From contig CAJTGF010000011.1 in the NCBI GenBank assembly GCA_910575585.1, positions 1-64,000 of the forward strand: a DNA stretch of 64,000 nt, written 5' to 3'. The position numbers and the translations under genes were made by a program. The stretch is from Clostridiaceae bacterium. Lineage in GTDB: Bacteria > Bacillota > Clostridia > Lachnospirales > Lachnospiraceae. Under the pieces are notes generated by a model. It saw nothing but the letters and a program-made list of their open reading frames with translations. It was not told the DNA's origin and did no database searches. Below, one piece after another: positions 95 through 20,289 of this stretch (its first letter is position 1; every line of letters begins with the position of its first letter).

Positions 95-291
95 GGATGA
101 GACCAGGAAAGCAGGAGGGATGATACCCGACTGATTTCCGTTTTGGGCTCAGCGGAATGTTTGGCATATCTGAACCCGGACGGGACATCTCTCCTTCTCT
201 GACTGGCTTCACGACTAAATCGGCCCCTTTGCTCACTCAACAATACAGCAACATAACGAATTTAAAGTTCCGGTTTATCCGGGTTAGGGGG
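95..291 (+). repeat. Half copy (A) of the 300 bp palindromic repeat family
   Basis: From GATGAGACC to the tail ending CCGGGTTAG this stretch matches, nearly base for base, the reverse complement of 3672-3865 and, less closely, 4189-4346. It holds only the 3' half of the element. The sequence before position 95 does not resemble the 5' half seen in the other two copies, so the long stem arm here has no partner. The last 30 bases (AATTTAAAGTTCCGG and following) are shared with copy B but not copy C. A and B therefore form an inverted pair around tag, mupG and the VWA gene. Positions 1-94 hold nothing I recognise. Confidence 0.8.
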
Positions 292-2477: not shown

Positions 2478-3656
2478 TCACAAACTCTGGCCTTCCCTGT
2501 CGATTACAGAAAGGTCCTGCCCCTTCAGGGCCCGCTCCAAAAGAGCCGGCAGTTTTTGAGGATCGCAGGCAAAACAGGGAATGCCCATCCCCGCGATCTT
2601 TCCTGCCATCTGCCCGTCATAGTAAGGTTTTCCGCCATCCGCAATAGCCAGCAAAGACACGATGGTCACCCCGGATTCCTTAAGCTGGGAAAGCCTTCGC
2701 AAAAGCGCCGCCCGGTTGCCGCCCTCAAAAAGATCGCTTACCAAAAACAGGATGGTCCTTTTTGGGTTCTCCACAAACTGGCTGCAGTATGCCACAGACT
2801 TATTAATATCCGTGCCGCCGCCCAGCTGGAACCCGAACAAAAGATCCACCGGGTCGTCACACTTTTCCGTCAGATCCACCACCTCCGTGTCAAAAGCCAC
2901 AATCCGGGTCTTTACCGACGCCATGCTGGCCAGGATACAGCTTATGACAGAAGAATAGATCACCGACTCCCCCATGGACCCGCTTTGGTCCACATCCAGG
3001 ATGATGGTGTACTTGTTGGCCGCCGTGGTGGAAGTCCGGTCAAAGAAATAGTAATGTTCCGGGATGATCTTCTTAAGCTCGGGCCTGTAATTCTTTATCC
3101 CTCTGCGGATGGTGGTCTGAAAATCCAGAGCCGACGCCGAGGGAATGGGGGAATGCTGCCGCCGGTTCACCGCAGCCGTCACGGCCCGCCGGATATCGCT
3201 TTCCAAAAGCTTATTGATCTCCTCCACGATCTTCTTCATAAACTCCCGGACGCTGTCTTTGCTCCTTTTGGGAATCTGGTCCTTTAATAAAAGGATGGTG
3301 GCCGCCAGATTCCTGTCCGGCTCCAGATCCTCCAAAAGCTCCGGCTCAAAAATAAGCTGTTTCAAGCCGCACCGCTCCATGGCGTCGGACTGGATGATCT
3401 TCACCAGGTCCTTGTCAAACAAAGTCCGCACATCCCCCAGCCATCTGGTGACCCGGGGAACCGACGGCCCATGCCCGGCGCCTCCGGCCCCGAAACGGCC
3501 AAACTCCCCGTTGTTGTAGATGGCGGCCAAAGCCTGGTCCATCATCCACTGCTCCGGCGACAGCTCCACAGGCCCGCCGCTCATGTTGTCAAATCCCCCC
3601 TGGCTCTCCTGGCCCAGTATCAGACGCCACCGAGCCATGCGATCCCTTAATTCCAT
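2478..3656 (-). CDS. VWA-domain (CoxE/YehP-like) protein of the MoxR cluster
   Basis: A 392-residue protein with a helical N-terminal half and a von Willebrand A domain from about residue 215. The metal-ion-dependent adhesion site is complete: DQSGS (D223, S225, S227), T282 in GGGTD and D308 in VSDLFEGG. There is no signal peptide, so it should be cytosolic. Such proteins act as partners or adaptors of MoxR ATPases, and one is encoded on the same strand at 6768-7856. It is last in the cluster but separated from the DUF5682 gene by 805 bases filled with palindromic repeats. Its ribosome site AAGGGGGAC is next to the end of repeat copy B. Resembles E. coli YehP by family. Confidence 0.88.
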   Translation of the reverse strand: MELRDRMARWRLILGQESQGGFDNMSGGPVELSPEQWMMDQALAAIYNNGEFGRFGAGGAGHGPSVPRVTRWLGDVRTLFDKDLVKIIQSDAMERCGLKQLIFEPELLEDLEPDRNLAATILLLKDQIPKRSKDSVREFMKKIVEEINKLLESDIRRAVTAAVNRRQHSPIPSASALDFQTTIRRGIKNYRPELKKIIPEHYYFFDRTSTTAANKYTIILDVDQSGSMGESVIYSSVISCILASMASVKTRIVAFDTEVVDLTEKCDDPVDLLFGFQLGGGTDINKSVAYCSQFVENPKRTILFLVSDLFEGGNRAALLRRLSQLKESGVTIVSLLAIADGGKPYYDGQMAGKIAGMGIPCFACDPQKLPALLERALKGQDLSVIDREGQSL

Positions 3657-3663
3657 GGACTTG

Positions 3664-3990
3664 TCCCCCTTTTCTAACCCGGATAAACCGGAACTTTAAA
3701 TTCGTCATATTGCTGGATTGTTGAGTGAGCAAAGGCGGGGATTGTCGTGAGGCCAGTCAGAGGAGAGCTGTCCCGTCCGGGTTCAGATATGCCGAACATT
3801 CCGATGAGCCCAAAGCGGAAATCAGTCGGGTATCAGCCCTCCTGCTTTCCTGGTCTCATCTTCATGGCATAGATTCACCCTGCCGGGACAGCTCTCCTCT
3901 GCCTGGCAAAACCAGAATTCGCTGGCTAAGGTTTGCTCACTTAAGGTGGTTTCGGTAGGGGACGCTGCCTCAACTTTGCAGTGAAAAATA
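3664..3990 (-). repeat. Full copy (B) of the palindromic repeat family
   Basis: A long imperfect palindrome in reverse orientation to copies A and C. An outer stem pairs TTGAGTGAGCAAA (3721-3733) with TTTGCTCACTTAA. The main stem is a perfect 18 bp match between 3758-3775 (CAGAGGAGAGCTGTCCCG) and 3884-3901. Further in, TATGCC pairs with GGCATA and GATGAG with CTCATC, and a terminal stem pairs GGAAA with TTTCC. The flanks (GCGTCCCCTA and TTTTCACT near the 5' end) are shared with copy C. It lies between the DUF5682 and VWA genes and encodes no plausible protein. A structured RNA or a mobile palindromic element are both possible. Confidence 0.8.
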
Positions 3991-4059
3991 TAGAAGCAGG
4001 ATTCGTTCCCATAGATATTATGCACAACCTATCACCGCCGCCAAAGCAGTTATCTTTTC

Positions 4060-4346
4060 ACTACAGAGTCGAAACAGCGTCCCCTATCAAAAACACCTTA
4101 AGCGAGCAAATCCCGGCCAGCCAATATCTGCTTTTGCCCGGGAGGGAAGGCAGGCTGTGTGCCGGCAGGGTGAATCTATGCCATGGAGATGAGACCAGGG
4201 AAACAGGAGGGCCTAACCCCTCCTGTTTCACGTTTTGGGCTCATCGGAATGTCTGGCATATCTGAACCCGGACGGCACACAGCCTGCCTTCCCTCCCGGG
4301 CTCCGCGACTATCCCCGCCTTTGCTCGCTCAACAATACAGCAATTC
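4060..4346 (+). repeat. Full copy (C) of the palindromic repeat family
   Basis: This copy faces copy B, so 3664-4346 is also a large imperfect inverted repeat around about 4020. Its main stem is a perfect 29 bp match, 4136-4164 with 4273-4301, and has a quite different sequence from the 18 bp stem of copy B at the same place. The outer stem reads GCGAGC/GCTCGC here against GTGAGC/GCTCAC in B, a compensatory change. The terminal stem GAAACAGGAGG/CCTCCTGTTTC is perfect here and only partial in A and B. The remaining gap 4347-4461 before the DUF5682 stop has one ATGTAC-type 20-mer (4395-4414) and nothing else I recognise. Confidence 0.8.
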
Positions 4347-4461
4347 CATTATTTTGCCATTTCGCGTAAGAAATCGTTCTTAAGGGCCTAAAATATGTAC
4401 CCCCAGAGTCTCTTTGGGCCTGATTTTGAGAGATAATTTTTTTCCGGATTCCCAGTGTACA

Positions 4462-19915: not shown

Positions 19916-20252
19916 GGGCCTGTACTGGTTTCGACAGGGATCATGCAGCTGGTGAAGCTATCCGCATGCGATGCGTTAAATGGCAAACTTAAATATAAAC
20001 GCTGAAGATAATTTAGCATACGCTGCTTAATTGCAGCCGTCAGCCTTAATGCACTCACACATTAAGAACCTGGCGTCGACTATGTGAGAAACGACACGCG
20101 CAAAGCTTTGAGCGCGCGGGCGTACCATGAAGCTACCAAACCCGTCCGAGTGTCAGCCCCCGGGCGGCAGAGGGAATGATCATTGACTGACTATGATAGT
20201 AGAAGAACAGGGAATTGATTTTTGGACACGGGTTCAAATCCCGTCAGGTCCA
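19916..20252 (+). ncRNA. ssrA: Transfer-messenger RNA (tmRNA)
   Basis: Rescues stalled ribosomes and tags the unfinished protein for degradation. The 5' end GGGCCTG pairs with CAGGTCC at the 3' end as the acceptor stem (one G:U), followed by the discriminator A at 20252; CCA is not encoded. ACTGGTTTCGACAGGG and GGTTCAAATCCC are the conserved tRNA-like parts. The tag frame runs from 19983 to the TAA at 20028-20030 and encodes ANLNINAEDNLAYAA, ending in the usual small hydrophobic degradation signal. smpB lies directly downstream on the opposite strand. Confidence 0.96.
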
Positions 20253-20289
20253 TGATATGCGGTAAGAATATCGTATGACAAAGACAAAA

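Follow-up and report, generated by a model that had tools for sequence, protein, structure and literature searches.

MITEs of DDE transposons have terminal inverted repeats, a target duplication and a fold as a single hairpin. The PATEs of the IS200/IS605 family have a fixed tetranucleotide target. They are short, consist of the palindromic ends only and are often moved by the transposase in trans (PMC7290912). REPINs are inverted doublets of REPs associated with RAYTs, in which two inverted palindromes make up the mobile unit; they are extragenic, repeated and non-autonomous, with a predicted single-stranded DNA fold, and the transposase-like RAYT has been proposed as their partner (PMC3116915). 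The REPs themselves measure 20-40 bp (PMC3733652). In mitochondrial genes of Nematomorpha there are long inverted repeats, free of mismatches, that are thought to be actively maintained, and template switching is discussed in this connection (PMC6649704). RNA hairpins arise and are kept up through template switching, in which copying of the reverse complement corrects the stems by multi-base compensatory changes (PMC8794818). In sponge mitochondria, repetitive hairpin-forming elements with divergent sequences invade intergenic regions (PMC2800124). The element described below is named in no title found among open-licence PMC papers.

The window, i.e., the whole stretch of 64,000 nucleotides analysed here, holds an element of 718 bp (3674-4391) situated between two operon genes. 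It runs from end I to end II with CTAA at both ends, and these ends recur in other copies. End I (TCTAACCCGGATAAACCGGAACTTTAAATTCG; 3673-3704, plus strand; CTAA at 3674-3677) contains, by eye, a small CCGG-ATAAA-CCGG hairpin and is found at 46 places in the same genome with up to three mismatches. End II (CATTTCGCGTAAGAAATCGTTCTTAAGGGCCTAA; 4358-4391, plus strand; CTAA at 4388-4391) contains, likewise by eye, a small AAGAA-ATCG-TTCTT hairpin and is found at 42 places with the same tolerance. The outermost ends of the window element show no long inverted repeat. Inside lie two hairpins of about 230 nt that face each other, hairpin B (3719-3944, minus strand) and hairpin C (4098-4335, plus strand), each with an outer stem, a variable stem (class A1 in B and class B1 in C), internal loops and a tip. 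The tip is common to both and the stems are unlike. The covariance model described below matches B at 3759-3900 on the minus strand with 152.9 bits and C at 4148-4289 on the plus strand with 154.1 bits, both hairpins being in its training set. According to the spacer alignment, the hairpins are separated by a spacer (3945-4097) that is longer in other copies than in the window copy. No gene was recognised between the two hairpins, and the ORFs that touch the spacer encode 67 and 94 aa and extend into the hairpins. Three further loci (L112, L113 and L116) contain host-like ORFs, ORFs of the hairpins and one DDE-like ORF outside the element; a 377-aa ORF at L116 (2020-3153; G000:C70), about 500 bp from a hairpin copy, is one that we take to resemble a DDE transposase.

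The initial annotation regarded B and C as separate copies, and this has to be revised, for together they make up a single element whose ends recur. It was correct about the hairpins themselves: the repeat finder returns perfect stems of 18 bp in B (CAGAGGAGAGCTGTCCCG) and 29 bp in C (GCCCGGGAGGGAAGGCAGGCTGTGTGCCG) at this place, and the outer stem carries the paired change that was described (GTGAGC/GCTCAC versus GCGAGC/GCTCGC). The tip and the motif that it assigned to both hairpins are indeed common to them, but the motif TGGCATATCTGAACCCG lies on the right arm only. Because the left arm reads GGGTGAATCTATGCC instead, an internal loop breaks the stem of B and C. A further copy in the window, copy A (about 96-288, plus strand), is half of a class A2 hairpin, consisting of the tip and right arm together with end I; its left arm is missing, i.e., the hairpin is truncated on the left side. 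A second short repeat, resembling ACTTAATGACATTGG, abuts cut or intact hairpins in the window (about 78-95) and at L066, L073 and L011. Elsewhere in the window, positions 19916-20255 are a tmRNA gene, which is the sole match there at the Rfam gathering score.

The element at 3674-4391 is an insertion. It is missing from the orthologous place at all nine comparable loci with both flanks, in nine other Hungatella genomes, where 9-42 bp lie between the matched flanks. Since the flanks of these relatives are too diverged at the window locus to give the exact boundary, we used a nested copy for this purpose, in which one element lies inside the tip of another hairpin (L045, about 1480-2115). Its exact empty site, TTTTCTGCTTTAGGGGCTC, has a single TTAG, and TTAG is found on both ends once the element is inserted, a picture that would be identical for a 4-bp target duplication. 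Across the copies, TTAG comes directly after end I in 49 of 56 cases and CTAA directly after end II in 41 of 51, which is a fixed tetranucleotide in one direction. Such a fixed direction would speak more for an enzyme of the single-strand Y1 type than for a target that is symmetric. In Hungatella the element goes in at TTAG, perhaps through a Y1 transposase.

Copies are numerous. A 17-base motif is found at 167 places in the genome (85 + 82) with up to two mismatches, and a 28-base motif occurs in 20 public sequences, all of which are from Hungatella. Among 392 genomes of the order, a 16-base motif has matches in 30 (this genome included), mostly one or two matches with one mismatch, and it is nearly missing outside the genus. 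Stretches from 73 regions, chosen among the first 100 motif places listed, represent this genome. Of the 147 motif places that lie within the window or the fetched stretches, all except 6 belong to A classes (A1-A3) or B classes (B1-B6) of stem. The two kinds are combined within the element: 23 of the 25 facing pairs that are 300-1000 bp apart are A+B, with one A+A and one B+B. Every facing pair with both ends recognised (14/14) carries one end I and one end II. Because the class-A hairpin is on the side of end I in seven of these pairs and on the side of end II in six (the last has two A hairpins), the inner block is present in both directions between the ends. At shorter distances there are 26 motif pairs (up to 110 bp apart), six of which are hybrids of an A outer arm and a B outer arm. 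The hybrids (L036, L042, L048, L057, L068 and L074) are short and look as if the stretch between two tips had been deleted. The arms of three hybrids pair poorly (L036, -14.4; L068, -15.4; L042, -17.4 kcal/mol), and therefore the rule of paired arms has exceptions.

The stems diverge and yet mostly remain Watson-Crick paired, with a conserved tip. Arm pairing was computed for 15 stem clusters that comprise 132 distinct units. The own arms of the cluster representatives reach -20 kcal/mol or lower in 11 of 15 cases (median -48.8), and the four that fail are hybrid, cut or nested copies; when arms are swapped between clusters, this level is reached in 79 of 210 cases (median -16.1). In alignment A1, which consists of 27 diverse units picked among those with paired arms so that its pairing is inflated, two-sided changes are found in 35 of 52 pairs, including all 24 pairs of the long stem. 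Its covariation score is 0.495 versus 0.150 for shuffled alignments (none of 500 as high) and 0.081-0.106 for slid ones. By eye, internal loops and an A-G mismatch break the stem at identical places in these units. Alignment A2 mixes both strands of some units and is left out of the counts. Alignment A3 comprises 37 units from other genera, with pairing of 96.4% in helix 2, 98.5% in helix 3 and 90.0% in helix 4 and just 61.8% in helix 1. Two-sided changes occur there in 36 of 40 pairs and the score is 0.543 versus 0.193 for shuffled alignments (again 0/500) and 0.127-0.261 for slid ones, though further pair types do not rise above the shuffles (80/500 as high).

Changes within classes bear on whether pairing is kept up by correction or by selection. 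When the count is confined to clusters with at least five kept units (118 of 132 units) and four unpaired units are dropped, 3336 cells contain 65 two-sided Watson-Crick changes at 25 distinct class-and-pair positions and 5 two-sided changes of other kinds; on one side only there are 36 mismatches and 25 G-T. The one-sided changes thus number 61 versus 65 two-sided, and 38 of the 61 are transitions. In the unfiltered count of 4172 cells, the two-sided changes comprise 71 paired and 8 unpaired ones, and 158 changes are one-sided (48 G-U and 110 mismatches). If pairing were irrelevant, a G-T share of about 31% would be expected among one-sided changes; the observed share is 41% (25/61) with the filter and 30% (48/158) without it. 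Any preference for pairs in young copies is therefore weak at most, while the long arms of older lineages are nearly perfect. Since one-sided changes stand beside two-sided ones within classes, the correction of pairing is clearly not immediate. We infer that arm pairing may be restored by later correction, as template switching could do (PMC8794818), though selection may account for it too.

The hairpin extends beyond the genus. A covariance model built from alignment A1 matches 122 places in the genome itself (all 122 candidates), at least 72 in G005 and at least 64 in G022 (122 scored in each). With 122 candidates scored per genome it matches at least 9 of 26 genomes of the genus, and with 8 candidates scored per genome at least 18 of 397 genomes and at least 16 of 334 genera of the family, our own included. 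Many copies with covarying arms, which the initial annotation named as support for a structured element, are thus present. As for what it said would refute this (no further copies in related genomes, or arms that fail to pair), many copies exist and most arms pair, although those of cut and hybrid copies do not. Elsewhere the surroundings of the hairpin differ. The termini are inverted repeats resembling AGGYAATTGCGAAA, and adjacent direct repeats of 10-13 bp flank 4 of the 14 elements judged genuine (from 24 rows, the rest being duplicate or spurious end pairings); in random flanks, a direct repeat of at least 9 bp has a frequency of 0.00015. Because these copies have terminal repeats and duplications, one hairpin seems to be carried by at least two chassis. 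In G603, a facing pair with unlike arms is found in 2 of 8 loci. No phage or plasmid home was found: viral contigs contain no exact match to the tip pattern, and phage and plasmid collections no match to the hairpin.

We suggest, with a probability of roughly 0.55, that the window element belongs to a mobile palindromic element which is free of genes and present in high copy number, and which would act as folded DNA and be kept up by hairpin-templated copying. Facing hairpins with a common tip and differing stem classes are observed directly, and the hairpin family is present in 16 genera of the sampled family. The upkeep of the arms and the function of the tip we infer as follows. The part that matters would be the hairpin of single-stranded or extruded DNA, of which the tip and its loops would be recognised. 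The arms would need pairing only and could therefore drift in sequence, and their pairing could be restored by hairpin-templated copying, i.e., by template-switch correction of quasipalindromes or by conversion between the arms, with selection for folding acting alongside. In Hungatella, the double-hairpin form would move into TTAG as an IS200/IS605-like element with TnpA supplied in trans, and the unlike A and B stems would stop one half from pairing with the other. Elsewhere, the hairpin would travel in another chassis with terminal inverted repeats and target duplications of 10-13 bp. A wider version of this proposal is tentative and rather doubtful in our judgement: the hairpin could be a portable DNA module with a conserved tip that is recognised in folded form, carried by at least two unrelated transposon chassis in the Lachnospiraceae and with arms that are repeatedly co-rewritten by fold-back copying, which would make every copy a self-correcting palindrome of individual sequence.

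The strongest competitor, which we consider unlikely, is an ordinary PATE, i.e., an ends-only derivative of IS200/IS605 whose large hairpins are enlarged versions of the end hairpins bound by TnpA. The TTAG on both ends in one direction and the small hairpins seen by eye in ends I and II would fit such an element, as would the Y1 sequences between or beside the hairpins. The latter include an open Y1 TnpA frame of 149 aa between facing hairpins in G005, where the left hairpin is cut down to the tip and inner arm. As ends I and II are not recognisable in that copy, its TnpA may belong to an IS200 that has inserted into the spacer. Of the 11 Y1 matches in the genome under study, three are located at hairpins (C36 and C37 between them, C47 to one side), all partial, and matches to PF01797 reveal Y1 remnants in the spacers of two copies with stem classes A3/B3. 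However, these large hairpins are absent from the two IS200 copies of the genus that were inspected (L152 and L172), and a scan of 17 further Y1 loci of the genus found the tip motif in none of 16, L170 being the exception. The hairpin also occurs in elements with the 10-13 bp direct repeats. In addition, PF01797 is matched in 8 of 20 tip-bearing genomes and in none of the other 12, which include the single-contig G603 and G724. General dependence on a Y1 TnpA was rejected for this reason, and the family of hairpins, taken together, is not classed as IS200/IS605 (Y1). Within the genus, Y1 is matched in 5 of 9 tip-bearing genomes versus 5 of 17 others, and the Hungatella composite may still operate as an IS200/IS605 (Y1) derivative.

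Quite unlikely is a structured non-coding RNA, or a terminator or attenuator, that is present in many copies and whose covariation reflects selection on the RNA. The deep covariation and conserved internal loops would be expected of it, and the fold is strong on either strand: a 683-nt stretch of the locus has z -28.91 on the plus strand and z -36.47 on the minus strand, with none of 20 shuffles as good on each. The pairs themselves speak for DNA. Helices 2-3 of alignment A3 contain 3 G-U among 542 standard pairs, whereas a small control, ten tRNAs from the fetched sequence, has 14 of 214, and the column pair 35-125 of this alignment has 18 G-C, 17 A-T and no G-T. The terminal stem (helix 4) is different, since its 17 G-U in 288 are about as frequent as in the tRNAs, and this counts in favour of RNA. 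Helix 1, which is poorly aligned, has 34 of 366 when summed, and in alignment A1 the numbers are 6 of 451 for the first 17 stem pairs and 4 of 302 for helix 4. Gene direction is also unbiased. Taking ORFs of at least 110 aa as genes, 39 of 60 loci have an ORF on both sides, with 27 in tandem (14 in the same direction as the hairpin and 13 opposite), 8 flanked by convergent ORFs and 4 by divergent ORFs; because two pairs of loci overlap (L194/L217 and L199/L218), as many as two cases may be counted doubly. None of these loci is covered by an ORF longer than 600 nt. Furthermore, in two genomes of one genus the same intergenic hairpin has been inverted in place (L237 in G350 versus L238 in G685, about 1501-1648): the flanks are identical at 450/466 and 472/490 positions, and the hairpin itself at 137/146 when reversed versus 98/165 as it is.

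No Rfam family reaches its gathering score in 11 hairpin loci, nor in the window apart from the tmRNA, and identity with a known Rfam family was rejected. A relaxed search of 3600-4450 gave four matches to microRNA models, all below gathering score (best E 1.5e-08). On balance, the G-U, direction and inversion results point to DNA, with helix 4 leaving room for RNA, and we read the elements as mobile DNA palindromes rather than RNA. The initial annotation had offered an RNA and a non-autonomous mobile palindrome with hypervariable arms as both fitting. The palindrome is well supported by the nine empty loci out of nine, the 167 motif places, the recurring ends, the TTAG and the covarying arms; the RNA loses ground through the rare G-U of helices 2-3, the 14 versus 13 gene directions and the Rfam result, and keeps the terminal stem as a point in its support.

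It is very unlikely that the arms were captured from other DNA, or that the tip inserts into the centre of pre-existing palindromes. This idea draws on G502, in which seven copies have arms of 86-141 bp that are nearly perfect and largely unrelated in sequence (86/86, 97/97, 100/100, 115/115, 121/122, 125/127 and 139/141 paired); an eighth copy runs past the contig end. The seven arms share one 17-nt match at E 0.01 or better in a short-word search and, seemingly, by eye, a short inner motif. In each of the seven copies (L223, L241 and L252-L256) the arms have a G+C of 0.59-0.70, higher than in either flank, which would suit capture; GC-biased conversion could also bring this about. Against capture, none of the arms has a second place of high identity in G502 among 40 of 83 candidates scored. 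Matches beyond their own loci are 69-95% identical, with the three best at 72-86% over 43-116 nt, and many of them lie in inverted pairs like other hairpins. The arms within G603, G483 and G022, moreover, are seemingly homologous and diverged. Inverted chimeras as an assembly or metagenome artefact, as might be suspected from several draft genomes and many copies at contig ends, are extremely unlikely, since perfect arms occur inside single-contig assemblies (33/33 and 32/32 in G603 and 28/28 in G724).

If the preferred reading of a mobile DNA palindrome is right, these elements offer a natural collection, in high copy number, in which to study whether palindromes remain paired through selection or through template-switch correction. 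Because many unlike stems share one tip, sister strains could separate the two. A further consequence would be that a structured DNA tip can persist across genera and transposon types.

Compared with the known systems, the window element resembles REPINs in consisting of two inverted palindromes and in being extragenic, repeated and non-autonomous. It differs in that its hairpins, each about 230 nt long, combine a conserved tip with arms that change, and in that a Y1 match is missing from 12 of the 20 genomes with the tip. In place of a GTAG-type tag with palindromes of 20-40 bp, as in the REPIN/RAYT system, end I is flanked by GTAG in 1 of 56 cases and by TTAG in 49 of 56. With PATEs it shares its shortness, its palindromes and the tetranucleotide (TTAG) beside the ends, but the large hairpins are not in the L152 and L172 IS200 copies and they recur in another chassis. 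The copies in that chassis are similar to DDE MITEs in their terminal inverted repeats, in their folding as a single hairpin and, in 4 of 14, direct repeats of 10-13 bp; here, however, the conserved part is the centre, i.e., the tip, and the arms differ in each copy and are paired nevertheless. The palindromes of Nematomorpha are likewise long and perfect, but they lie inside coding sequence and a shared tip is not part of the account consulted. Template switching supplies a mechanism of correction, though it was studied in RNA genes and not in a mobile family. The sponge elements, by their description, also form hairpins and are divergent and intergenic, but they are mitochondrial. In Hungatella the element may work like a REPIN or a PATE, while it shows some and not all of their defining features. 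We file it as a non-autonomous mobile palindrome of a new sort.
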